Below are positions 1-23,651 of a stretch of 26,333 bases of DNA, one piece after another; position 1 is the stretch's first letter, and each line of letters opens with the position of its first letter. Source of the DNA: a virus; the IMG/VR virus record IMGVR_UViG_3300031862_000546, positions 1 through 26,333 of that record; one strand, given 5' to 3'. The notes under the pieces are model-generated. The model searched no databases. It saw only the letters and a program-made list of their open reading frames with translations, and had not been told where the DNA came from. Position numbers and translations under genes: made by a program.

Positions 1-480
1 AGGCATTTCTGAGACAGCTTCATTGAATCCTTGAACAGATGCGGTTGCAGAATTCATTTGGGAAGCGAAACTCCACATAGCGGCTGCTGCAGCGATGATG
101 ACAGCAATGCCAACGCCAGTTAAAGCGAGAAAAGTTGCATAGCTAATGTTCAGAGCATTTTGAGCAGCTGTTGCAATCCAGCAGGCAGCGGCATAAACTT
201 TCTGGGCAACGGCGACGCCCCAGCTTGTCCTCATGAACATGCCCATAACTGTTACGACCATCATGGCAGAGTTGAAAACCCGAGCTTGCTGATCGTTGAG
301 TAAGCCGAACTCGTGGGCGATGTGCCCAATAGCGACGCCAGTTGCTCCTAAACCCGCGATGGCTGCGCCTAAGCTCTTGATCCGTACACTTAATGCTTCA
401 GCGTCGCTTTGTATTCTGGCGAATTCGTGGCTTGCATGGTTGACGGCGCGGATGGTGACGGCAATTTCTCGGAAACTCAT
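1..480 (-). CDS. Tape measure protein, N-terminal part (cut by window edge)
   Basis: Tail tape measure proteins set tail length and line the tail lumen. I translated 160 codons from the ATG at 480 to the window edge with no stop, so only the N-terminus is here. It starts MSFREIAVTIRAVN, then a helical stretch, then hydrophobic segments rich in Ala, Gly and Val (about residues 40-55 and 125-140, the latter with VGIAVIIAAAAAMW). This hydrophobic character and the place directly after the tail chaperone and gp10-like genes fit a tape measure protein. Its ATG overlaps the upstream stop as ATGA, so translation is probably coupled. The family call rests on composition and gene order, as no diagnostic motif is available in this fragment. 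Confidence 0.75.
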   Translation of the reverse strand, partial: MSFREIAVTIRAVNHASHEFARIQSDAEALSVRIKSLGAAIAGLGATGVAIGHIAHEFGLLNDQQARVFNSAMMVVTVMGMFMRTSWGVAVAQKVYAAACWIATAAQNALNISYATFLALTGVGIAVIIAAAAAMWSFASQMNSATASVQGFNEAVSEMP

Positions 481-839
481 AAGCCAGCCTCCGCTTTGGC
501 TGCGTCGATGGCTGCACAAATGATGTCCTCGAGCTGAGGAAGATACTCTCGAATGGCGGGGTAGAGGTATGGCTGTGCTCGCATGTGTCTGGTTCCAAGT
601 TCAACGAATAAGGCGTAAGCAGCTTCAGCGCCTATCTCGGCGACCCATTCCTGAATCTTCGCATAGATTGTGCTTCGCAGATAGCCTGTTCGCACTGGCA
701 CAAGCTGCTTAGCTAAAGCCTTAATGTCAGAAGCCCAGCTGTGCAGGTATCTGTAGACTTCTCGTTGCATTGCGGAGTCAAAGCTTCGCATTGCCGCTTG
801 AAACTCTTCTATTCCTTCGACATCGCATGATATTTCTAT
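477..839 (-). CDS. HK97 gp10-like tail completion protein
   Basis: Small neck/tail-completion protein of the HK97 gp10 family. Family hallmarks are visible: a VPVRTGYLRSTI segment in the middle and YALFVELGTRHMRAQPYL near the C-terminus, followed by a helical tail. The first ATG (791) would cut off a well-formed family N-terminus: the open frame upstream reads IEISCDVEGIEEFQAAM, the usual strand plus 'gi-ee-f' helix. No ATG, GTG or TTG lies between the stop at 867-869 and 791. I therefore place the start at the ATA at 839-837, which overlaps the TAG of the frameshifted chaperone as ATAG. If only standard starts are allowed, the gene is 477-791 (104 aa). The product is about 120 aa, normal for the family. 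The function call is strong; the start is uncertain. Confidence 0.8.
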   Translation of the reverse strand: MEISCDVEGIEEFQAAMRSFDSAMQREVYRYLHSWASDIKALAKQLVPVRTGYLRSTIYAKIQEWVAEIGAEAAYALFVELGTRHMRAQPYLYPAIREYLPQLEDIICAAIDAAKAEAGL

Positions 840-1344
840 CGACGTTTCGCTTCCCTCTCCACCTTTTTACGCTCTTCCTCTGCCTCTCTGTCCATTTCGT
901 TCAGGATCACGATGAATTTCTGGACCATTTTTGCTGGTTCTCTTCCAAGCTCTGAGGGCAGTTTTTTGAATTCTTGACAGAGTCGGAATTCTGTGAGGTC
1001 TGGGTTCGGTTGCTGTCGTCTGATGGCTCGGATAAAAAAGCAGTTTCCTCGAGGCTGACATTGTTTAGTTTGTTGGCAATTTGGCTGAAGAGTTCACCCA
1101 AGCCAATTGGGATGCCGTCTTCTTCGCTCAACAGTTTTTCAAGTGTTATGGGCTTGTGGGGTGGTTGCTCCTTTAGGCTTGCCCAGATTGTTTCAGCTTG
1201 GATTCCTATGAAGTCGCTACTTATGATGTGGCCTGATACTGGGTGATATTTGGTGTATTTCTGAATGATTCTGCTTCGCTTTGCCCATGTGATCTCTTGG
1301 AAAACGTAGCGACCGGCGTACTGTTCTCCGTAGCGGTTGTCTAT
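836..1344 (-). CDS. Tail assembly chaperone, -1 frameshifted (gpGT-like) product
   Basis: If ribosomes slip -1 at 1033-1039, translation continues at the ATC at 1033 for 65 codons to a TAG at 836-838. The extension (IRAIRRQQPNPDLTEF at its start; MVQKFIVILNEMDREAEEER further on) is far more protein-like than the zero-frame tail, with a charged coiled-coil C-terminus ending EREAKRR. The fused product would be about 169 aa, against 145 for the unshifted form. In lambda-like tails gpG coats the tape measure and the T domain recruits tube subunits; the slip ratio sets stoichiometry. The stop overlaps the ATA proposed as the start of the gp10-like gene. That the -1 frame is coded is inferred from its sequence character and position. 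Confidence 0.72.
907..1344 (-). CDS. Tail assembly chaperone, zero-frame (gpG-like) product
   Basis: Located between the tail tube and tape measure genes, where the gpG/gpGT-type chaperone sits. The frame is open from 1371 to the TGA at 907-909 and its first two thirds are clearly protein-like (YGEQYAGRYVFQEITW, then LSEEDGIPIGLGELFSQI). After the slippery site the zero frame becomes a low-complexity Ser/Asn/Gln tail of 41 residues. There is no ATG, GTG or TTG before the TTG at 1131, which would delete most of the conserved-looking part. The best non-standard start is ATA at 1344, a few bases after an AGAGG motif and the stop of the 76-aa gene. A +1 shift from that gene at GGT TGA is an alternative. 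Size with the ATA start: 145 aa, similar to lambda gpG. Confidence 0.7.
   Translation of the reverse strand: MDNRYGEQYAGRYVFQEITWAKRSRIIQKYTKYHPVSGHIISSDFIGIQAETIWASLKEQPPHKPITLEKLLSEEDGIPIGLGELFSQIANKLNNVSLEETAFLSEPSDDSNRTQTSQNSDSVKNSKNCPQSLEENQQKWSRNSS
1033..1039 (-). promoter_or_regulatory. Programmed -1 ribosomal frameshift site (T TTT TTA)
   Basis: On the minus strand the zero-frame codons read GCT TTT TTA, which is the canonical X XXY YYZ heptamer with X=T, Y=T, Z=A. It lies where the zero frame turns low-complexity and the -1 frame becomes protein-like. No strong stem-loop is evident within 10 nt downstream; a 5-bp ACAGA/TCTGT hairpin lies farther off. Confidence 0.75.
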
Positions 1345-1345
1345 T

Positions 1346-1576
1346 TCAACCTCTTCTTTTCGCGTTTTGAATCATCTCCATGGTGGCTATTCTGTTTCTG
1401 ATGGCTGTGTTAACGTCTTCAAGCACGATGTCTTGCATCCACTTGGGAAGCTTGAGTATCCGAACCCCGAGCGTTTCCCACATTTTCAGCCATTTCTTGC
1501 GCAAGGTAGCCTCTCGACCAAAATTTTCCAAAACTTTGACTTCAACAGCCAATCTTGTCCACCTCAGCTTATCCAA
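1346..1576 (-). CDS. Uncharacterised 76-aa tail-region protein
   Basis: Begins with TTG at 1576, overlapping the end of the tail tube gene by 13 nt, and stops at the TGA at 1346-1348, two bases short of the chaperone's proposed ATA. It is basic and helical (KKWLKMWETLGVRILKLPKW, then a helix ending QNAKRRG). Its place between tail tube and chaperone suggests a tail assembly role. The last sense codon and stop, GGT TGA, preceded by purine-rich AGAAGAGG, could allow a +1 shift into the chaperone frame, joining the two ORFs, in the manner of the prfB site. I cannot assign a family. Confidence 0.6.
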   Translation of the reverse strand: MDKLRWTRLAVEVKVLENFGREATLRKKWLKMWETLGVRILKLPKWMQDIVLEDVNTAIRNRIATMEMIQNAKRRG

Positions 1577-2418
1577 ACGTCTCTGGCAACGAAGCTCGCC
1601 TTCAGACTGACGAGGTCTTCAATTCGGGTAGGCGTGCTGGCGTTTTCCCACTTGCAGTATTTGAATAGGGCACTGTTGGTTCCGCCTAAGCCGAATTTTA
1701 GGCTGAATTCGCTGTCGTTGATTATGTCATCGTATTCTTGTTTGCTTTCAAACTCGAAGATTAATTCGCCTATTAGGTTGCGGTGGCGTGCTGCAAGGTA
1801 TTTGAGTAGTTCTCCGCTTGTTGAGCGGATTACGGGCACTCGCTTGAGGTTGTTTTCAATCGTGAATTTCCAGTCTGTTGCCCTTTCTATGGTTGTTAAG
1901 CCCGAGCCGTCTCCTGCGCCTCGTTGAACATAGCTTTCGTTGTAGGGAACCGCCCCAGAATAGTCGGCGTAGGTGGCTCCTGTTATTTTTGATGTGCCAA
2001 CGACAACGTTTTGTCCGATCAGTTCTACGGTTGCCTTAACAACCTCTTCGATACCGCATTCTACGGTAGCCTTGTCTATTCGGCATCCTTTGTGGAGAAA
2101 GTCGATGATTCCAGAGGCTTTTTCATAGAAGACTTCGATGCTTAGAGAGTTCAATGTTGTCGCATACTGCAGAAAGTTTATTGGGGCGTCGCTTGGCAGT
2201 GGATAAGCAACTTTCAAGGCGATGTCTCTTAATCCTTTCTTGATCGCTTGTAGGTCTCGGCTTCCGATTCCGCGCACTTTGATTAGGCTTGGATTCAGGG
2301 AAGGGTCAACGTCTTCTGCTTCGATGCCGAGCATTGAGGGGTTGGATGGTGTTTCTCCGTAGTTGGTTTCTTGTACGTAGTAGATTTTTGCTTCGTGTGC
2401 TCCATAGGGCATGCTCAT
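1564..2418 (-). CDS. Major tail tube protein
   Basis: The 284-aa protein starts MSMPYGAHEAKIYYVQETNYGETP, the usual 'aYv.E.tyGetP' opening of long-tail tube proteins, followed by a beta-rich body with repeated strand patterns (IKVRGIGSRDLQAI; KATVELIGQNVVVGTSKI; RDVWIS at the end). Tube proteins polymerise as stacked hexameric rings around the tape measure. It follows the tail terminator gene by 15 nt and overlaps the next gene slightly, as expected in a tail module. Length is within the range of single-domain tube proteins with an extra loop or Ig-like portion. Confidence 0.8.
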   Translation of the reverse strand: MSMPYGAHEAKIYYVQETNYGETPSNPSMLGIEAEDVDPSLNPSLIKVRGIGSRDLQAIKKGLRDIALKVAYPLPSDAPINFLQYATTLNSLSIEVFYEKASGIIDFLHKGCRIDKATVECGIEEVVKATVELIGQNVVVGTSKITGATYADYSGAVPYNESYVQRGAGDGSGLTTIERATDWKFTIENNLKRVPVIRSTSGELLKYLAARHRNLIGELIFEFESKQEYDDIINDSEFSLKFGLGGTNSALFKYCKWENASTPTRIEDLVSLKASFVARDVWIS

Positions 2419-2433
2419 TTCTTTTCATTCCTC

Positions 2434-3435
2434 CTAAGTGGTTAGAACGTTTTCAAACAACCATGATTTTGTCGTGAATTCGGTTCGCCATATGAAGGGT
2501 TTAACTTGCACATCGTCCATGTTACGGAAGCTGACGATGTCGGCATAGCTTATGCCATTGACTGTGAACGCTATTTCTGTGTAATCGCAGTAAAGAATAG
2601 CGGGTGTTACGCCATCGCTTGGGTTTGTTGTCTTCGCCAGCAAATAGACATAGCCATCTGCATCGACATAATCTGGCAAGTTAGACGACAAGGTTATTGT
2701 CAGAACTTCGTCGCTTCCGCCAGCGCCAGAGGTAGGGTTCTGCCATGTACTCGCAATATGGCTCCAAACTTTTATTGTGGTGCCATTTCCTGCTGGGGCT
2801 GTGCCGTAGCCCTCAAACTTCAAAATCATCCTTTTCAAAACGTCTTCGTCGGCGTCTATTTTGAGGCGGAAAAGCATAAGGGCGTATTTTCCATTTTCCG
2901 AAGTTGATTTGCTGAAGCGGTCATTATCGCTGTACCAGATTTTTTGGTATTCAATATCGGTTAGCTCTGTCCAGCTGGGATCACTGGGTGAAGGCTCCGT
3001 TACAAAAGCTGAATGATAGGCTTTGTGCGTTCCTGAGGAGCGTCCGATACCTCGGAAGTAATAGTCTGCTTCGTTGGGGTGGTTGCGTTTCTCTCGGATA
3101 ACTCTGTTAATATCAGTTCGTATTTTGTCTCGCATGGTTCTGCCGATAATGCCTTGTTCAGGCTTGTCTACGACCCAGACGTTAATGCGTGCAAAGATTA
3201 GTCGGCGTCTGAGGTTGCCGTCAAAGCTGAGTTTGTTGTCTTCGGTGCGGTCTAAGCCAACTGTTATTTGTCCATCATAGTTTTTGAAGAGTTCACGGTC
3301 ATACCATTCTTGGCTGACGTAAATGTTGGCAAGGGAACCGTCGTCTTTTACAACCCAGAGGTATCGCTTGAGCAATCGCATCAGCGTCAAAATTGGATCT
3401 TCGACTTGGCTCACTGTCCGAGAAGCCTCCTGCAA
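2434..3435 (-). CDS. Tail terminator/completion protein with inserted beta-sandwich domain
   Basis: Residues 1-130 have the alpha/beta look of a tail terminator (DPILTLMRLLKRYLWVV, then RRRLIFARINVWVVDKPEQG and a helix RDKIRTDINRVIREKR). About residues 130-290 are a Gly/Thr/Ser-rich beta region resembling a jelly-roll or carbohydrate-binding module (KYALMLFRLKID; EVLTITLSSNLPDYVDADGY; YTEIAFTVNG). The last 40 residues (DIVSFRNMDDVQVKPFIWR, then WLFENVLTT) return to a terminator-type final strand. So the beta domain looks inserted in the terminator fold rather than appended. The gene lies directly before the tube gene, the standard terminator position, and overlaps the head-closure gene by 25 nt. 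The terminator call is from position and pattern; the inserted domain's ligand is unknown. Confidence 0.6.
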   Translation of the reverse strand: MQEASRTVSQVEDPILTLMRLLKRYLWVVKDDGSLANIYVSQEWYDRELFKNYDGQITVGLDRTEDNKLSFDGNLRRRLIFARINVWVVDKPEQGIIGRTMRDKIRTDINRVIREKRNHPNEADYYFRGIGRSSGTHKAYHSAFVTEPSPSDPSWTELTDIEYQKIWYSDNDRFSKSTSENGKYALMLFRLKIDADEDVLKRMILKFEGYGTAPAGNGTTIKVWSHIASTWQNPTSGAGGSDEVLTITLSSNLPDYVDADGYVYLLAKTTNPSDGVTPAILYCDYTEIAFTVNGISYADIVSFRNMDDVQVKPFIWRTEFTTKSWLFENVLTT

Positions 3436-4802
3436 ACGGCTTTGCGGTGGACGGTTTCGCCTTTAAAGTCAAATTCTTGGATGTCGAGAACCTCGTAATC
3501 GACGCCTTTTCTGTGGATTTTGTCATGTTGTCTTATTGGAGCGAAAACGTGAATGGTGAGGTAATCATTGATGATGTAACCAGGTTCGATTAAGACCTCT
3601 TCAATTCTTGCTGGGCTAACGATGGCTTGGATGTCGATGCCTTCGCCGTATGAAACTGTTTCAGATGCTTCTCGTATCGGGTATAGGGTTACGTTTTCGC
3701 CTTTCGACTTCAGGATTTGTGTGAAGCGTGTTAGTGGGTCCTCGTAGTTTAGGTAGAGTAGTGACAGCCAGGCGACTGTTGCCATTGCTTGTTTGTTTTC
3801 CTCGTAGCTGTAGTCGGAGTGTTTTGCGCCCCAGAACATGAATTCGCTCTGATGTTTGTCGATGATTTTCATGCTGAATTGGAAGCTTGGTTTGTCGTGG
3901 TTTTTGCGGATTTTCCATAGGATTCCGCTTGTGACTGCGTCGTAATAGTCGCATGCTGGGAAACGGCTGGACACGTCGATGTAGCCTGCCCAACAGATGG
4001 CTGGGTTGTATGCTGGATACTGCGGGCTGGCTCTGATTGTGTTGATGATGTTGTAGACTTTTTGGGCGGTTATGCTCCAGCCTTCGTAATCATATATGCC
4101 AAGAAGAGCGTAGGCGAATGGGTCATCGTAAATCTCGTTCTCATTTGCACCGACTCGATGCCAATTTGAATCGGCAGGGTCATAGTAGAGCCAAAGACTT
4201 TCAAAACCTTCTCGAAGGAAATTAACAGCCTTTGACATTATGTTTTGGTAGGTGTTGGCGTTGGCGGTATCGTATTTTTCTGCGAGCATTTTTAAGCCAA
4301 TAAGCCCGTAGAGACATTCGATGTCCAGTTGGAGAAGCCAAGCGTCTGCAATGGTGACAGCTCTGGCAAAACCGCCGTAGGTCTGCTTGTCCTGCATGGT
4401 TTTGAGAAAAGTGGCTCCGGCGAGCTTGGCAGCGTTCAGGTATGCAGCTGTGCTGGTTAACTCGTAGGCCCTCAAAAGGGAAGGAATAACGCGGCATGCG
4501 TCTACGCTGTAATAGTATGTGCTTGTTTCGTTGCTTTTGAATCCGCCATAAGCCTTCTTTGCTGGGTCCGTACACTGCTGCGTTAAAATCCAGTCTGCGA
4601 GAGAAACAATCTTGTTGTAGATGTCTGTCTGCTTGCTGGCAAATTGTGGATTGTGGTAGGTTTCATATAGGAAGTCTATGGCGAAGGCTGCTGCAAAGGC
4701 AGCTCTGCCCCAAGTCAGGTCAGGACCATAACCTGGAATAACGTAAACGTAAGGTGCGTAGTCCATGACGAATTGATAATAGGCTTCTGGAACGGTTCCC
4801 AA
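3411..4802 (-). CDS. Head-closure protein fused to an alpha/alpha-toroid (six-hairpin glycosidase-like) domain
   Basis: About residues 1-355 form repeated helix pairs rich in Trp, Tyr and Ala with Gly-containing turns (AYGGFKSNETSTYYYSVDAC; ADAWLLQLDIECLYGLIGL; DDPFAYALLGIYDYEGW), the pattern of (alpha/alpha)6 toroids such as six-hairpin glycosidases. Residues about 358-463 match a head-closure/head-tail joining protein: FTQILKSKGENVTLYP, a strand IDIQAIVSPARIEEVLIEPGY, then HDKIHRKGVDYEVLDIQEF. It lies between the adaptor (4806-5159) and the tail terminator, exactly where the head-closure gene should be. Ordinary head-closure proteins are about 100 aa, so the N-terminal 350 residues are an addition. 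Active-site residues cannot be assigned, so it may bind rather than cleave glycans. Confidence 0.65.
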   Translation of the reverse strand: MGTVPEAYYQFVMDYAPYVYVIPGYGPDLTWGRAAFAAAFAIDFLYETYHNPQFASKQTDIYNKIVSLADWILTQQCTDPAKKAYGGFKSNETSTYYYSVDACRVIPSLLRAYELTSTAAYLNAAKLAGATFLKTMQDKQTYGGFARAVTIADAWLLQLDIECLYGLIGLKMLAEKYDTANANTYQNIMSKAVNFLREGFESLWLYYDPADSNWHRVGANENEIYDDPFAYALLGIYDYEGWSITAQKVYNIINTIRASPQYPAYNPAICWAGYIDVSSRFPACDYYDAVTSGILWKIRKNHDKPSFQFSMKIIDKHQSEFMFWGAKHSDYSYEENKQAMATVAWLSLLYLNYEDPLTRFTQILKSKGENVTLYPIREASETVSYGEGIDIQAIVSPARIEEVLIEPGYIINDYLTIHVFAPIRQHDKIHRKGVDYEVLDIQEFDFKGETVHRKAVCRRLLGQ

Positions 4803-13035: not shown

Positions 13036-14109
13036 TTAAGTCTGCAAGGCAGTCTTACCATAACAGCTACAGACTCGAGGCGTGTAACGCAATTTTAAAG
13101 CATCCCACATTTCCACTGTTTCTTTGCATATAGATACTCGGGACAGAGGAAAGTTTGCTGAATCGAGTTTCTTGTAGAAAAACTCGTATATTTCCTTCCT
13201 CTGCTCAAAAGATAACTTTTTGCCCCAACCAGTGTCCTCTTTGAAGAAACGTGTCCAAGACATATCTGCGCATGCTTCTTTAGCATACTTTATTGTTTTC
13301 CAGAGCCCTCTTGGCGTGCCAAGAATAATTCTGTTAGGATTCAGGTTGACCAGTATTTGGTCAACCAATTCACCATAATGCAGCTGCCAATCAGGGACCG
13401 GAAAAATAGGATCTATGCGTATCCTCGTGTCATACCCAGCAGTGCTAACCTGTTTGGCAGCTTCAATTCTTTTCTCTGGAGGAGGAGCAGCTTTCTCCCA
13501 AAGCTTGGCGACTGCAGGAGCGTTAATGCTCCAACCGCATATCACCTGTTTTCTCGGGTGGTCTAACAGAAACTCTATGTTTCTCGCTCCAAATTTCGTG
13601 AGGAGGTATATCTTGTGCTTACTCTGTTGCTCAAATCTTTCAACTATTTGAGCCATTATCTGGGGATTCATAAGAGCATCCGACAACTCACCTGCGTTGA
13701 AAATTGATGGTGAACGGATTTTAGTGAAGGCTTCATCCAAGGCTTCCAGGATATGGTCAATCCTCACATATTGAGGGCGCATTTTGCCGCGAGTTGTTCC
13801 TCGTAAGTAGCAATAGCTGCAGTCCAGTGGGCAACCATACGCCCATCTTAATTCCCAGAACATTCCGCATGCTATGCTTTCAGGGGTTTTGTGAAAAGGC
13901 ACAACAATGCGGTTTCCATTCCAAGCAGGCTCTATCAGTTCATAAGACTCGCTTATCTCTGGGTGTTTTATTTTTTGCATGGCTTCTGGCTTTATGAACT
14001 CGGTTAACTTCTGCATGTCTTTTGTAGCTTTCTCTCTCTTCTGGCGTTTTATTGTTCGCCAAGCCTTTAATGCTGCTTCCCTATGCTTTTTCTTGTCTTT
14101 GGCAGTCAT
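13036..14109 (-). CDS. SPL-like radical SAM protein (first copy)
   Basis: A 357-aa protein from the ATG at 14109. The radical SAM iron-sulfur motif is CPLDCSYC (C93, C97, C100). Later blocks are NAGELSDALM, HKIYLLTKF, RIRIDPIFPVPDWQLHY, RIILGTPRGLW and a late CKETVEMWD followed by Cys-rich RVCSCYG. This is the layout of spore-photoproduct-lyase-like radical SAM enzymes, which bind a 4Fe-4S cluster and cleave SAM. I reject the longer TTG start at 14148 because the TATA box 14135-14143 would be inside it. The N-terminal 50 residues are basic (KDKKKHREAALKAWRTIKRQ), perhaps nucleic-acid-contacting. It is a paralogue of the next gene and faces the TcmP gene; substrate unknown. Confidence 0.78.
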   Translation of the reverse strand: MTAKDKKKHREAALKAWRTIKRQKREKATKDMQKLTEFIKPEAMQKIKHPEISESYELIEPAWNGNRIVVPFHKTPESIACGMFWELRWAYGCPLDCSYCYLRGTTRGKMRPQYVRIDHILEALDEAFTKIRSPSIFNAGELSDALMNPQIMAQIVERFEQQSKHKIYLLTKFGARNIEFLLDHPRKQVICGWSINAPAVAKLWEKAAPPPEKRIEAAKQVSTAGYDTRIRIDPIFPVPDWQLHYGELVDQILVNLNPNRIILGTPRGLWKTIKYAKEACADMSWTRFFKEDTGWGKKLSFEQRKEIYEFFYKKLDSANFPLSRVSICKETVEMWDALKLRYTPRVCSCYGKTALQT

Positions 14110-14134
14110 ACTGCATCCGTTTCCTACCCAGAGT

Positions 14135-14143
14135 ATTATATAA
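14135..14143 (-). promoter_or_regulatory. TATA box of the first SPL-like gene
   Basis: Minus-strand TTATATAAT is centred at 14139; a start site 26 nt downstream (about 14113) lies just before the ATG at 14109, so the transcript would be nearly leaderless. This also decides the start codon. Confidence 0.6.
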
Positions 14144-14200
14144 CACAAATTAACATTTTACTAATTGGATACTCGGTTTCGAGATTTTCATTAGGCAAAG

Positions 14201-15166
14201 CTAAGGTAAACAATTACACTGAATACTCTTGTAGTCCATGCCAAGTTTGGTCCACATTTCAATAGTTTCTTTGCAAAGAGCAACCTTCGAGTAATTGTAC
14301 TTAGATCTCAGATATTCCAATACGGTTTTATAGATCAAGAATCGAGTGTTGAAAGCAATTTTCTTTCCCCAGTTGGAAGTTTCTGTCATAAAAATTGTCC
14401 ATGATTTGTCTCTTGCATTATTGATGGTGCTTTGAAGACCTCTTAAAGAGCCCAGAGTGATTCTTTCCGGAACAAACTTGCTGAATATTGAGTCTATGAT
14501 ACTTAGATATTGTTTTTGCCAATTTTCAACGGGAACTATTGGATCAATACGGATGCGTGTCTCGTAGCCTGCTTCGCTCAAGAGTTTTGCAGCGTTCAGT
14601 CTTTTTTCGACAGAAGGTGCTCTCTCCCATTTTCTTGCGACTGATGGTGCGTTTAGGCTAAAACTAACTATAACTTGACTGTGGTTTTTCATTTTGAGAA
14701 GATTTTTTATGATGGTGGATTTAGTCAAGAATAGGACTTTGTGTTGCTCTTGTTCTTCAAAAAGTGGTATGACGAATCTTGAAAATGGTTTATTGGTGCT
14801 TTCAGTCATTAGAGAATCAGCCAGCTCTCCAGTGTTTAGTAGCTCCCTTGAGTGTCCGTCGTTCTCAAAGAAGCTTTCCAAATGCTTCTGGATTTTACAG
14901 TAGTCTTTGACGATAGGCTTTGTCCTTGTACTGAGAAGCCGTAGTGTTCCCTTGAGAAAGCACCATGCACAATCATAAGGACAACCGTAAGCCCATTTCA
15001 GTTCCAGAAAATGTGGACATACAACGTCTGTCAGTTTCTGGGGAATCGGCGTCTTGTCAAATCTTTTTATTATCGATCCGTCTCCTACTTTCTGGACCAG
15101 TACTTGTTCTGATCCATCGAGGAGAGTATAGCTGTGAAACTTGACTTCTGGCAGACGTTCACTCAT
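14201..15166 (-). CDS. SPL-like radical SAM protein (second copy)
   Basis: A 321-aa protein starting with ATG after GGTGAAGGAGAA. The iron-sulfur motif is CPYDCAWC (C62, C66, C69), preceded by FLELKWAYG. It shares with the neighbouring copy NTGELADSLM, RIRIDPIVPVENWQKQY, RITLGSLRGL and CKETIEMW, then a Cys-rich end (QCNCLP). The two are thus paralogues, but this one lacks the basic N-terminal extension. Both retain the cluster Cys and the TGELxDxLM block, so neither looks dead. Two copies could act on different sites, or act as a pair with TcmP. The role is unproven; DNA/RNA repair or radical-based modification are both possible. Confidence 0.78.
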   Translation of the reverse strand: MSERLPEVKFHSYTLLDGSEQVLVQKVGDGSIIKRFDKTPIPQKLTDVVCPHFLELKWAYGCPYDCAWCFLKGTLRLLSTRTKPIVKDYCKIQKHLESFFENDGHSRELLNTGELADSLMTESTNKPFSRFVIPLFEEQEQHKVLFLTKSTIIKNLLKMKNHSQVIVSFSLNAPSVARKWERAPSVEKRLNAAKLLSEAGYETRIRIDPIVPVENWQKQYLSIIDSIFSKFVPERITLGSLRGLQSTINNARDKSWTIFMTETSNWGKKIAFNTRFLIYKTVLEYLRSKYNYSKVALCKETIEMWTKLGMDYKSIQCNCLP

Positions 15167-18064: not shown

Positions 18065-20899
18065 GTGGAGCTGTGGTTTAACGTGGTAAAAGATTCCTCA
18101 GAGTGGCTCACGCGCAAGGAAAAAATTGATATTCTTTTGAGACAAGCGGGTTGGGACATGAGGGATTCTACGCAAGTTGTTTTGGAAGTCGATACGAAGC
18201 AGTCCGATTTTAGAGCGAGAAATTATAAGACTGTTTCGGAGACTCTCAGGGCTGAGGGCGAAAGCGCCTATGCTGATTATTTGCTTCTTGATGGTTCTGG
18301 AGAGGCGTTGGCGATTATTGAGGCTAAAAGGACATCTAAGGACCCGATTCTTGGTCAGAAACAAGCAGAGGGCTATGCAGACGATATTAAGAAGCAGACT
18401 GAGAAGGATGTTTTTATCTTTCTTACGAATGGTTATGAGATTTGGTTTTGGAATCGACCTTATGAGAACCCGCGTATGGTGAAGGGCTTCCACTGTCGGG
18501 AAGCTTTGGAAAGGATTAGATTTCAGAATTATTCGAAGAAGGATTTCTATGATGTTCCGATTAGGAAAGAAATTGTTGACAGACCTTATCAGATTGAGGC
18601 TGTTAAGAGGGTTTTAGAGGGAATCGAGAAGGGTAAGCGTAAGTTTTTGATCGTGCAAGCTACGGGCACGGGCAAGACAAGGGTTGCTATGGCTATTATT
18701 GATGTGCTGTTGCGTGCGAACCGTGCGCAGAAGGTTTTGTTTCTGGCAGATCGGAAGGCGTTGAGGGACCAGGCTTTTAGTGATGGGTTTAAGGTGTTCT
18801 TTCCGAATGAATCTAAGATTAAGGTTTTTTCTGGTGCGGTAGATAAGACTCCGAGGTTGTTTGCTTCGACGATTCAGACGTTTATGGAGTGTTATCAGGA
18901 GTTTTCCACTGGCGATTTTGATGTCATTATTTCGGATGAGTGTCACAGGTCGATTTATAATAAATGGAAGGATGTTTTCACGTATTTTGACGCTGTCGAA
19001 ATTGGTTTGACAGCAACTCCAGCTGAGTTGGTTGAAAGGGATACGTTCAGGTTCTTTGAATGTGAAGACAGTATTCCCACTGTTCTTTATACATATGACG
19101 AGGCGGTTGAAGATGGTTGGCTGGCTCCTTTTCGATTGTACAAGGCTAAGACGCATTTTCAGATTGCTGGAATTAAGCCGGAGGATGTGCCTGGTGAAGT
19201 GATGAAGGAGCTTATGGAGAAGGGTGTTGAGCCTGAAGAGGTGAATTTTGAAGGCACGGACATTGAGAAGAAGGTTGTTGTAATTGGAACGAATGAGGCT
19301 ATTGTTAAGGAGTTTATAGAGAACTGTGTGAGGGACATGACGGGCACTTTGCCTGCTAAGTCGATATTTTTTGCGATGACTAAGAAGCATGCTAAGCGTT
19401 TGTGGGAAGCGTTTGAGAGGCTTTATCCAGAGTATAAGGGTAAGCTTGCGAGGATTATTGTTTCTGAGGATGAGAGAGCTCAGGAATCTTTGAAGGAGTT
19501 CAAAATCGAAAGTTTGCCGAGGGTGGCAATATCGGTCGACATGCTGGATACTGGAGTGGATATGCCCGAAGTTTGTAACTTGGTGTTTGCTAAGCCTGTG
19601 TTCTCGAAGATTAGGTTTTGGCAAATGATTGGCAGAGGTTCGAGGAATGATGAAGCTTGCAAGTTTAAGGAGTGGCTGCCTAATGGAAAGAAGGAAGAGT
19701 ACCTGATTTTTGACTGTTGGAGTGTCTTTGACTGGTTTGACATTCATCCTAAAGGAAAAGAGGAGGCACCATCTGAAGCAGTCCCAGCGAAAATATTCTT
19801 AGTTAGAATACGTTTGCTTGATCATTTTCTTAAAATTGGCAATAAGGCTCGTGCTGAGGAAGTGAAAAAGAAGCTAATGGAAGACATTGCGGCGCTTCCG
19901 AAGGAATCTATTTCTGTTAGAGAGCATCTGAGAGATATTGAATTGGCATCTTCTCCTAAGCTGTGGGACAGGGTTGGACTTGATCCTCTGGATTTCTTGA
20001 AGACCAAGATTACACCATTGATGAAGTATAAGCAGAATGTGGAGATTAATGAGGCGTCTTTTGCATTGAAGGTTGAGCAGCTTAGTTTGGCTTTGCTGGC
20101 TGGCAATCAGGCTGAGGTTGATAGGCTAAGAGAAGCTATCGGAGAGACTTTGAACTGTTTGCCTACCACGATACGTGAGGTTAAGGAGAAAGAAGCGTTG
20201 CTTGATAAGGCTTTGAGCAAGTCGTTCTGGCAAGGTATCACTTGTGAGGATGCTCAGATGATGTTAAGGGAATTTGGTCCCTTGATGAAATATAAATTGC
20301 CAGAACCGAGGCCTACAATTGTTCTTGATATCGATGATGTTGTGGAGCGGAGAGAGCTAATTGAGTATGGTCCGCCTCTCACTCCTCTTTCAGATTACGT
20401 TGAGAATTATAGAGCCAAGGTAGAGAGAAAGATAAAGAAGATTGCCGAGGAACATCCGACGATTCTGAAGATTAAGCGTGATGAAGTCATTACAGAAGAG
20501 GACTTGCGGAATCTTGAGAAGACATTGAACAGTCCAGACTTGTACGTAACGGAGGAAGTCCTTCAGAAAATTTACAAACAGCCAAAGGGAACGTTGGTGC
20601 AGTTTATTAAGAAAATGTTAGGATTGTATGAGTTTCCTGATCCGCGGAAGAAGATAGAGGAAGCTTTTAAGACGTTTATGATTGAGAAGAATTATTTGAA
20701 CGCTGATCAGGTGAACTTTTTGAGAACCGTTCAGACTGTCTTCGCGATGAAGCATCACATTGAGTACAGTGATTTGTTTGAGCCGCCTTTCACGAGTTTT
20801 GGACCAAAGGCGCCCATTCCCTTATTTCAGAAGGATGAGTTAACGGAAGTTCTTTCGATGTGTCAGAATTTGGAGCAGGAGGTGTTTAAGAATGCTTGA
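18065..20899 (+). CDS. hsdR: Type I restriction enzyme, R (motor-nuclease) subunit
   Basis: The 944-aa chain starts with GTG (a GTG at 18083 is possible). It has an N-terminal PD-(D/E)xK nuclease with D71 and E86-A-K88 (YADYLLLD; AIIEAKR). The SF2 translocase follows: Walker A ATGTGKT at 199-205, DECH at 291-294, GLTATPA at 314-320, and a C-terminal motor half with motif VI QMIGRGSRND. The final third is helical and binds the methylase. HsdR drives ATP-dependent DNA translocation and cleavage of unmodified DNA in an R2M2S complex. It overlaps hsdM by 8 nt. Length is typical for compact HsdR. The G/T-rich coding strand differs from the neighbouring genes (see findings). Confidence 0.93.
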   Translation: MELWFNVVKDSSEWLTRKEKIDILLRQAGWDMRDSTQVVLEVDTKQSDFRARNYKTVSETLRAEGESAYADYLLLDGSGEALAIIEAKRTSKDPILGQKQAEGYADDIKKQTEKDVFIFLTNGYEIWFWNRPYENPRMVKGFHCREALERIRFQNYSKKDFYDVPIRKEIVDRPYQIEAVKRVLEGIEKGKRKFLIVQATGTGKTRVAMAIIDVLLRANRAQKVLFLADRKALRDQAFSDGFKVFFPNESKIKVFSGAVDKTPRLFASTIQTFMECYQEFSTGDFDVIISDECHRSIYNKWKDVFTYFDAVEIGLTATPAELVERDTFRFFECEDSIPTVLYTYDEAVEDGWLAPFRLYKAKTHFQIAGIKPEDVPGEVMKELMEKGVEPEEVNFEGTDIEKKVVVIGTNEAIVKEFIENCVRDMTGTLPAKSIFFAMTKKHAKRLWEAFERLYPEYKGKLARIIVSEDERAQESLKEFKIESLPRVAISVDMLDTGVDMPEVCNLVFAKPVFSKIRFWQMIGRGSRNDEACKFKEWLPNGKKEEYLIFDCWSVFDWFDIHPKGKEEAPSEAVPAKIFLVRIRLLDHFLKIGNKARAEEVKKKLMEDIAALPKESISVREHLRDIELASSPKLWDRVGLDPLDFLKTKITPLMKYKQNVEINEASFALKVEQLSLALLAGNQAEVDRLREAIGETLNCLPTTIREVKEKEALLDKALSKSFWQGITCEDAQMMLREFGPLMKYKLPEPRPTIVLDIDDVVERRELIEYGPPLTPLSDYVENYRAKVERKIKKIAEEHPTILKIKRDEVITEEDLRNLEKTLNSPDLYVTEEVLQKIYKQPKGTLVQFIKKMLGLYEFPDPRKKIEEAFKTFMIEKNYLNADQVNFLRTVQTVFAMKHHIEYSDLFEPPFTSFGPKAPIPLFQKDELTEVLSMCQNLEQEVFKNA

Positions 20900-22373
20900 T
20901 CCTGAGATAAAGTCCAAGATTGAGAAGCTTTGGAACATGTTTTGGGCTGGCGGTTTGGCGAATCCATTGACTGCCATTGAACAGATGTCCTACTTGATTT
21001 TTATGAAGAGGCTTGAAGACCTTGATAATGTTCATCGCATGCGGGCAGAAGCAGTCAAGGAGACGTATAAATCGGTCTTTGAAGGTCACGAGAATTGTAG
21101 GTGGTCGAATTGGAAGCATATGAATGCTGAGGCGATGTTTAAGCATGTTAGCGAGGTTGTGTTTCCGTTTATCAAGAATTTGCATAACGGTGAGGATGTA
21201 GTTTATGCGCAGTATATGCACGATGCTACTTTCATGATTCCTAAGGCTTCGCTCTTGCAGGAAGCTGTTTCGATTATTGACGATATCAAGATTGGAGAGA
21301 GACCAGACATTCAGGGAGACATTTACGAACATTTGCTTGGTGAGCTGAAGACTGCAGGGAAGAATGGGCAGTTTAGGACGCCTCGCCATATTATTCGTAT
21401 GATGATTGAGCTCGTTGATCCAGAGATTGGGCAGAAGATTTGCGACCCTGCCTGCGGAACTGGCGGCTTCCTAATTGCCGCATATCAACACATACTAAAG
21501 AAGTACACAACTCCAGATATGGTGAAGTTCGACCCTGACGGCACGCCACACAATCTGATAGGGGATAAGATAGTAAGGAAAGAACACTGGGAGCTTTTAT
21601 GGAAAGAAACATTCTATGGGTTCGATTTTGATATCACGATGATACGCATTGCACTCATGAACATGATTCTGCACGGCATAAAAGAACCAAACATCAGACA
21701 GATTGACACACTTTCCAAGAGATTTGAGCAAAAACCGCAGTACGATATTGTCCTTGCGAACCCACCTTTTGCCGGCTACGTCGACAGAGCTGATATACAT
21801 GATAATTTCAAGGTAGACACAACCAAGACGGAGCTTTTGTTTCTGGAACTCTTCTATAATCTTCTGACAATCGGAGGAAAAGGAGCAGTAATTGTTCCTA
21901 ACGGTGTATTGTTTGGTTCTTCAAACGCGCACGTAAAAGCAAGACAAACGATTCTTGAAAAATGCGACCTCCAAGCAGTTATATCTATGCCTTCCGGAGT
22001 GTTCAAGCCCTACTCAGGTGTTGGTACGGCAATCCTAATCTTCGTCAAGGGCGGAAAGACCGAGAAAGTCTGGTTTTACGATATGAAATTCGACGGTTTT
22101 TCCCTTGATGAAAAACGTGATTTCATCGACGGCAAGGGAGACATTCCTGACATAATTGAGAAATTCAAGAAGGGACAAGTTGAATCGACTCAGAGCATTC
22201 TTGTGCCCTTTGAGATGATAAAGAAAAACGATTACAACCTGTCGATTTCACGATACAAGCAGGTTGAGCGTGAAGAAGTCGAGTTTGAAGAACCTGAAGT
22301 CTTGATCGAAAACGTCTCTCGATTAGAAGAAGAGATTGCGAAGGAATTGCAAGATTTGAAAGCGATGATATGA
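20892..22373 (+). CDS. hsdM: Type I restriction enzyme, M (adenine-N6 methyltransferase) subunit
   Basis: The 493-aa protein has the N-terminal helical domain of HsdM (KLWNMFWAGGLANPLTAIEQ), the GxFxTPRHI-type entry (GQFRTPRHIIRMMIELV), SAM-binding motif I DPACGTGGFL (185-194) and catalytic NPPF (290-293). It methylates adenine in the site given by HsdS, protecting host or element DNA. Directly followed by hsdS, whose ATG abuts the hsdM stop. Nothing is missing. Base use changes sharply just after motif I. Confidence 0.95.
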   Translation: MLDPEIKSKIEKLWNMFWAGGLANPLTAIEQMSYLIFMKRLEDLDNVHRMRAEAVKETYKSVFEGHENCRWSNWKHMNAEAMFKHVSEVVFPFIKNLHNGEDVVYAQYMHDATFMIPKASLLQEAVSIIDDIKIGERPDIQGDIYEHLLGELKTAGKNGQFRTPRHIIRMMIELVDPEIGQKICDPACGTGGFLIAAYQHILKKYTTPDMVKFDPDGTPHNLIGDKIVRKEHWELLWKETFYGFDFDITMIRIALMNMILHGIKEPNIRQIDTLSKRFEQKPQYDIVLANPPFAGYVDRADIHDNFKVDTTKTELLFLELFYNLLTIGGKGAVIVPNGVLFGSSNAHVKARQTILEKCDLQAVISMPSGVFKPYSGVGTAILIFVKGGKTEKVWFYDMKFDGFSLDEKRDFIDGKGDIPDIIEKFKKGQVESTQSILVPFEMIKKNDYNLSISRYKQVEREEVEFEEPEVLIENVSRLEEEIAKELQDLKAMI

Positions 22374-23651
22374 ATGCACGGCGCCAAGCTACCATACGGC
22401 TGGAAACTCAGTGCTCTTGGGGAAGTCATTTTGGGTAAACCGCAATATGGACTAAATGCACGGTCTTCAACAAAAAAGAATGAGATTGTATATCTTCGCA
22501 TCAGTGACATAACAGACGAAGGGGAACTCAAAACTGAAGGCCTTCACTATATTGATGCGAATTCTACGGAAGTCGGTAAGTACGAACTTCATGAAAATGA
22601 TTTTTTGATAGCGCGCAGTGGTTCTGTCGGCCGAGTTTATCTTCATCATGATTTGGGAAAGCCTTCAGTCTTTGCATCCTATCTGATTAGATTTAGGCTG
22701 GATTCAAGTAAAGTTCTCCCGAAATTCGTATTCTACTGGGGATTAAGTCCCCATTTCAAAAGAGAGATTGGGGCAAGGAGGAAAGTAGTAGCGCAACCCA
22801 ACATCAATGCAAAGGATTACTGCAGATTTATGCTCCTTGTCCCACCCCTCGAAATACAGCAAAGAATTGCCTCAGTCTTAGAGAAGGCTCACAAACTTAA
22901 GCAGAAGCGCAAAGAAGCAAATCAACTATCATTGAGAATTATTAGATCTATTTTTCTGAAGATGTTTGGTCATGGAATACCGCAGAACAAAATTGATGAT
23001 GTCGTAGAATTCGTTTCCAGCGGGTCTACACCATTAGGCGGCGAGAAAACTTATGTTGCAGACGGTATTGTTTTCATCAGAAGCCAAAATGTACTCATGA
23101 ACGAATTGAAATTAGATGATGTCGCACACATTACAGAACAGGTTCATAATCAAATGAGAAGAACATGGGTCAAAGATGGCGACGTTCTACTCAACATAAC
23201 TGGCGCTTCAATGGGTCGAGTGGCTTTCTACAGAGGACCAGACGACAAAGCGAATGTGAATCAACATGTCTGTATCATAAGGCTGAATAAGCACAAAGCC
23301 CTACCGGAATACATTTCGTACTATCTCTCGAGCTCAAATGCCCAAAAGCAAATTTGGACTATCCAAGCCGGTGCCTCAAGACAAGCTCTAAACTTTGAGC
23401 AAGTGAAATCACTTAGCCTATATCTACCACCTCTCAGCGAACAGCAAAAATTCGCAACCATCGTCAGAACAACACAGGCTCTGCGAGGCAAGCAAACTCA
23501 ATCCGCCATGCAGATTGATGAATTATTCCACTCTTTGATGCACAAAGCCTTCAGAGGAGAACTTGTCGCAGAGATCAAAAAACTCTCTGAAAAGAAGATT
23601 ACAAGCCCACGGACTCTGGGCTCTTACCTTGATCGCAATGTGCTATCGTAA
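22374..23651 (+). CDS. hsdS: Type I restriction enzyme, S (specificity) subunit
   Basis: The 425-aa protein has two target-recognition domains (about 1-155 and 200-360), each followed by a conserved helical region: PPLEIQQRIASVLEKAHKLK after the first and PPLSEQQKFATIVRTTQALR after the second. Typical motifs are KYELHENDFLIARSGSVGRV and VKDGDVLLNITGASMGRVAF. HsdS sets the bipartite sequence recognised by the methylase and nuclease. Complete by length and domain order. Confidence 0.92.
   Translation: MHGAKLPYGWKLSALGEVILGKPQYGLNARSSTKKNEIVYLRISDITDEGELKTEGLHYIDANSTEVGKYELHENDFLIARSGSVGRVYLHHDLGKPSVFASYLIRFRLDSSKVLPKFVFYWGLSPHFKREIGARRKVVAQPNINAKDYCRFMLLVPPLEIQQRIASVLEKAHKLKQKRKEANQLSLRIIRSIFLKMFGHGIPQNKIDDVVEFVSSGSTPLGGEKTYVADGIVFIRSQNVLMNELKLDDVAHITEQVHNQMRRTWVKDGDVLLNITGASMGRVAFYRGPDDKANVNQHVCIIRLNKHKALPEYISYYLSSSNAQKQIWTIQAGASRQALNFEQVKSLSLYLPPLSEQQKFATIVRTTQALRGKQTQSAMQIDELFHSLMHKAFRGELVAEIKKLSEKKITSPRTLGSYLDRNVLS

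Follow-up and report, generated by a model that had tools for sequence, protein, structure and literature searches.

The stretch of viral DNA analysed here (the window) is the entire IMG/VR record IMGVR_UViG_3300031862_000546, 26,333 bases in length, with the head and tail genes encoded on the minus strand. One locus among these genes very probably encodes the tail-assembly-chaperone pair G/GT of a tailed virus of Bathyarchaeia, in which the GT protein would be made by a -1 ribosomal slip on a T TTT TTA heptamer. This reading is built on comparison, which supplied the conserved frames and heptamer, the chaperone fold, the homology of the T domain and the gene neighbourhood; slippage itself, its rate, the ratio of the products and their role in assembly are what we infer. 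Most ribosomes would read G to its stop codon at 907-909, yielding a protein of 152 amino acids. A minority, with the transfer RNAs (tRNAs) for TTT and TTA on T TTT TTA, would slip back by one base and go on to read the T domain, giving a GT fusion of about 175 amino acids. By analogy with lambda, G would coat the tape measure protein, the T part of GT would recruit the tube subunits, and both G and GT would leave before the tail is completed.

The slippery heptamer and selection on the two frames

On the minus strand, the codons at 1041-1033 read GCT TTT TTA in the frame of G, which places the heptamer at 1039-1033. The initial annotation had described this in-frame sequence without naming a strand, and it is present as described, together with the two readings reported to follow it. 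The zero frame continues past the heptamer for 41 residues (SEPSDDSNRTQTSQNSDSVKNSKNCPQSLEENQQKWSRNSS), the last 41 codons of G (907-1032 with the stop), and ends at 907-909, so that 123 bases separate the slip site from the zero-frame stop. The -1 frame remains open past the heptamer for 64 codons (IRAIRRQQPNPDLTEFRLCQEFKKLPSELGREPAKMVQKFIVILNEMDREAEEERKKVEREAKRR), to a TAG at 836-838.

Relatives were collected by a tube-protein search, which returned 80 IMG/VR loci, and by a genome search, which returned 15 loci from records that were all titled Candidatus Bathyarchaeota; further contigs were added by using G and T as queries. Once identical sequences had been discarded, the IMG/VR contigs and Bathyarchaeia genomes provided 164 distinct G-T junctions. 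Both G and T, with T in the -1 frame relative to G, were found in the window and in all 80 IMG/VR loci, and 14 of the 15 Bathyarchaeota genome loci carry a heptamer, the remaining one (L094) ending before G.

An in-frame X XXY YYZ heptamer is located near the end of the G domain in the window and in every one of the 164 junctions (TTTTTTA in 140, TTTTTTG in 10, AAAAAAC in 8, AAAAAAT in 3, AAAAAAA in 2, and AAAAAAG in 1). Loss of the heptamer and stops in the -1 frame, which the initial annotation had named as outcomes that would count against the slip, were looked for by comparison and occurred at none of them. Changes between the T and A types of heptamer took place at least twice on a tree of 95 loci, used for heptamer types and start codons, and the T domain always remained in the -1 frame. 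Measured from a conserved RAxRR motif, the A-type heptamer lies roughly one codon farther upstream, as read by eye from the sequences, which indicates that the site was replaced while the fusion was kept. The codon preceding T-type heptamers always has T as its final base, despite encoding eight different residues. Of 217 Phe-Leu pairs found away from the junction in the G, gp10 and tape-measure genes of these viruses, just 3 read T TTT TTA/G, compared with a heptamer at 164 of 164 junctions; the heptamer at the junction is not a matter of chance.

The two-frame check of synonymous conservation proposed in the initial annotation was carried out on 59 non-redundant T-type sequences, and it found the zero frame constrained upstream of the heptamer and the -1 frame constrained downstream. 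Before the heptamer, the freest codon position was position 3 of the zero frame (0.55 bits, versus 1.39 and 1.50 for the other two), and after it, position 3 of the -1 frame (0.92 bits, versus 1.61 and 1.37); the phase of conservation thus passes from zero to -1 at the heptamer. Single-base codon differences downstream were predominantly synonymous when read in the -1 frame (17710 synonymous versus 8041 nonsynonymous) and predominantly nonsynonymous when read in the zero frame (4058 versus 21497). Purifying selection acts on the zero frame before the heptamer and on the -1 frame after it, and the synonymous excess in the -1 frame, combined with the phase switch, indicates that T is the protein under selection past the slip.

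Chaperone identity and competing explanations

The T domain (836..1038, minus strand) matches phrog_9001 (PHROG 9001, tail assembly chaperone; E 3.8e-11). Gene G (907..1365, minus strand; 152 codons from an ACG, plus the stop) was modelled with AlphaFold2 at a predicted local distance difference test score (pLDDT) of 89.9, and the two best matches of the model among solved structures were Bacillus YqbN (3KLU; Z 8.8) and HK97 gp13 (2OB9; Z 6.7), followed by a third at Z 4.0. YqbN and HK97 gp13 have both been described as tail assembly chaperones (PMC9603447). The G domain shares their fold, but the identity is only 13-14% over the aligned residues. The fold of G, the phrog_9001 match of T and the gene neighbourhood together support the assignment of the locus to a tail chaperone, as first proposed. 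The accompanying claim, that a T-like domain lies in the -1 frame and is conserved across an archaeal virus group, is also sustained, with both G and T carried by all relatives. No ATG, GTG or TTG precedes the conserved motif in the T frame in 126 of the 164 junctions, the window included. With most of these viruses lacking a start codon in the T frame, the T domain would escape ordinary gene calling.

Several observations weigh against this identification. Foldseek alone scored YqbN against the G model at an E-value of only 0.64, and sequence-family searches with G gave no match. The gene order is slightly unlike that of lambda. No conserved stimulatory RNA structure was detected downstream of the heptamer by RNAalifold in the 59 sequences, pseudoknots being outside its model. 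A downstream stem-loop or pseudoknot stimulator is common in G/GT systems, although not universal. Minimum-free-energy z-scores downstream of the heptamer were ordinary, with no excess stability. The search of phage records by tblastn with G gave no match, and a sequence-profile search of the Protein Data Bank returned a chance-level match only.

A homopolymer run is present at every junction, as would be the case if the fusion arose from RNA polymerase, rather than the ribosome, slipping on the T6 or A6 run. The run is, however, exactly 6 in 158 of the 164 junctions and never longer than 7, and runs of 6-7 are short for polymerase slippage. The register, moreover, is X XXY YYZ throughout, and T-type heptamers always have A or G as their seventh base, neither of which polymerase slippage requires, and a transcriptional origin of the fusion is accordingly improbable. 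Even less likely is that T is a separate protein initiated inside G, with the heptamer incidental to it. In 38 of the 164 junctions, the T frame does offer an ATG, GTG or TTG ahead of the conserved motif, and T is annotated as a gene of its own in a Bacillus phage record, but such a start is missing from the other 126, and the heptamer is kept in all junctions, its class having changed and its register never having been lost.

Indels are possible in single metagenome contigs, and G and T might in principle be a single gene that was disabled by mutation or only looks broken because of a sequencing error. The 164 distinct sequences that share this junction, however, come from many metagenomes and from Bathyarchaeia genomes, and selection acts on each frame on its own side of the heptamer, so that a broken gene is the least credible of these explanations; assembly error is excluded by the many independent contigs. 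Among the relatives, G and T fused in a single frame were not found. Ribosomal slippage on the heptamer is strongly favoured.

Known systems and the open zero-frame tail

In lambda, gpG and gpGT arise from a -1 slip at an X XXY YYZ sequence near the end of G, and the T domain is made only by slipping (PMC5009743). The Bathyarchaeia virus locus resembles this system in having a chaperone gene upstream of the tape measure, a predicted -1 slip near the end of G and a short C-terminal T domain. It differs in its T TTT TTA heptamer, its 41-codon zero-frame tail and the neck gene that separates T from the tape measure, and no sequence similarity of its G was detected. In published reviews, a -1 frameshift in G-T is considered likely in the haloviruses HVTV-1 and HCTV-1, -2, and -5 (PMC5009743; PMC8211752). 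These too are tailed viruses of archaea for which a tail-chaperone slip has been proposed, but their hosts are haloarchaea; the A AAA AAC heptamer is common to the haloviruses and some of the A-type relatives described here. The suggestion in the initial annotation that the slip is conserved into archaeal viruses therefore holds for the Bathyarchaeia virus group, while its novelty was overstated, -1 frameshifting in the tail chaperones of haloviruses having been proposed already (PMC5009743; PMC8211752). Frameshifting was not mentioned in the searchable papers on Bathyarchaeia (pro)viruses. A bacterial counterpart was found in Bacillus phage Jayan (L097; 2654-3001 and 3037-3243), in which a homologous T (35% identity over 48 residues) follows in the -1 frame after A AAA AAG. 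The Jayan pair, unlike that of the window, has a bacterial heptamer and a zero frame that stops soon after the slip, and is annotated as two genes without a frameshift.

The G/GT of these siphovirus-like Bathyarchaeia genomes is a well-supported addition to a known system, from which it departs in its heptamer and in the length of its zero-frame tail. It brings viruses of a common archaeal class within the range of the G/GT frameshift. According to one review, the only archaeal -1 frameshift that had been shown experimentally was that of fucA of Saccharolobus solfataricus (PMC8211752). The 164 natural junctions, with two heptamer classes and two zero-frame tail lengths, make a ready set for studying which features promote -1 slippage by archaeal ribosomes.

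The zero-frame tail is 41, 43 or 46 codons long in 145 of the 164 junctions. In all 59 T-type sequences tested, no zero-frame stop occurs within the first 36 codons, and when the -1 codons were redrawn synonymously, about 20% of T-type sequences were predicted to be open for 40 codons. Among the Leu, Val and Ile codons of the T-type overlap at which the third base could create a zero-frame stop, 2 of 479 do so. The rate for the gp10 and tape-measure genes is 36%; for the part of T that lies past the zero-frame stop it is 56%, and A-type viruses show 23% over the corresponding region. The counts come from related sequences, which overstates their independence, yet the contrast is large. In most A-type viruses, the zero frame stops within a few codons of the slip. 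In the training phages of one published study, the mean distance from slip to zero-frame stop was 26 bases, and recall was poor for long distances (PMC10885494).

Because the residues of the tail vary freely, openness or length appears to be selected more than any particular peptide. One tentative, and rather doubtful, proposal is that the zero frame of T-heptamer viruses is selected to stay open for about 40 codons (about 120 bases read in two frames), either as a G tail of set length and nearly free sequence, or under a rule in the archaeal host against stops near the slip. Without a conserved RNA structure, the archaeal signal would then be organised unlike the bacterial one, and ACG starts might also set the dose of G. 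Immediately upstream of the heptamer lies a purine-rich Glu-Glu stretch. Pairing of the upstream sequence with the anti-Shine-Dalgarno sequence was -3.7 kcal/mol, versus a background of -2.0 kcal/mol, and third-position bases were not conserved; this stronger pairing may only be a reflection of the Glu-Glu codons.

Start codons and neighbouring genes

The initial annotation began the gene at 1344, a start that homology does not uphold: the start codon is placed at 1365-1363 (minus strand), where most relatives have ATG. In the alignment of 94 loci, the G start codon is ATG in 75, TTG in 6, GTG in 6, ACG in 6 and ACA in 1. At the aligned start of the neck gene (843-845, minus strand), ACG is found in 5 loci, of which the window is one, and most relatives have ATG or GTG where the window and related viruses have ACG. 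Besides the window, the loci with ACG at the start of G or of the neck gene are L002-L004, L034, L036, L080, L083 (ACA in G), L117 and L127. At least three start-codon changes on the tree were required for G and at least two for the neck gene. Contigs L002-L004 come from other metagenomes, show 94-100% sharing of the tube protein and carry the same ACG as the window, which makes sequencing error an unlikely source. From these alignments, ACG rather than ATG seems to be the initiation codon of both G and the neck gene in this virus. At both starts the gene overlaps the end of the one before it, suggesting that coupled ribosomes re-initiate there. In four related loci (L033-L036), the aligned start codon of the tape-measure gene is ATA.

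Between the tube gene and G lies a 76-codon open reading frame (1346..1576, minus strand), which overlaps the start of G by 20 bases and is present in about half of the relatives; no confident family match was obtained for it with PHROG and Pfam-type profiles. A frameshift from this reading frame into G was considered as a way to account for the lack of a usual start codon; G stands at +1 (or -2) to this frame, with no slippery site apparent. An ACG start is the simpler explanation, because relatives have ATG at the same place.

The tail tube protein is encoded at 1564..2418 (minus strand; Phage_tube_2, PF18906, E 3e-13). On the other side, the T end is overlapped by 10 bases by an HK97-gp10-like neck or tail-completion gene (477..845, minus strand; phrog_5, E 3.8e-20; PF04883, E 1.6e-5). 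The start of the tape-measure gene, cut by the window edge, follows at 1..480 (minus strand); it is named by its position downstream of the neck gene and is the next gene in nearly all relatives, and its first 160 codons gave no confident family match. G/T thus lies downstream of the tube gene and upstream of the positional tape measure, and the placement between these two genes given in the initial annotation is roughly right, but not exact, with the 76-codon reading frame intervening on the tube side and the neck gene on the other.

Elsewhere in the window, a 463-amino-acid protein of the structural cluster (3411-4802, minus strand) has a weak, sub-threshold match to D-glucuronyl C5-epimerase. 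Two tandem radical S-adenosylmethionine (SAM) proteins of the spore photoproduct lyase family (PF20903) are encoded at 13036-15166 (minus strand), and a complete type I restriction-modification set (R, M, and S subunits) at 18065-23651, on the plus strand, opposite to the structural genes. Rfam identified a 108-base tRNA near the contig end (26154-26261, minus strand), probably with an intron and missed by ARAGORN in bacterial mode, which may mark a provirus attachment site.
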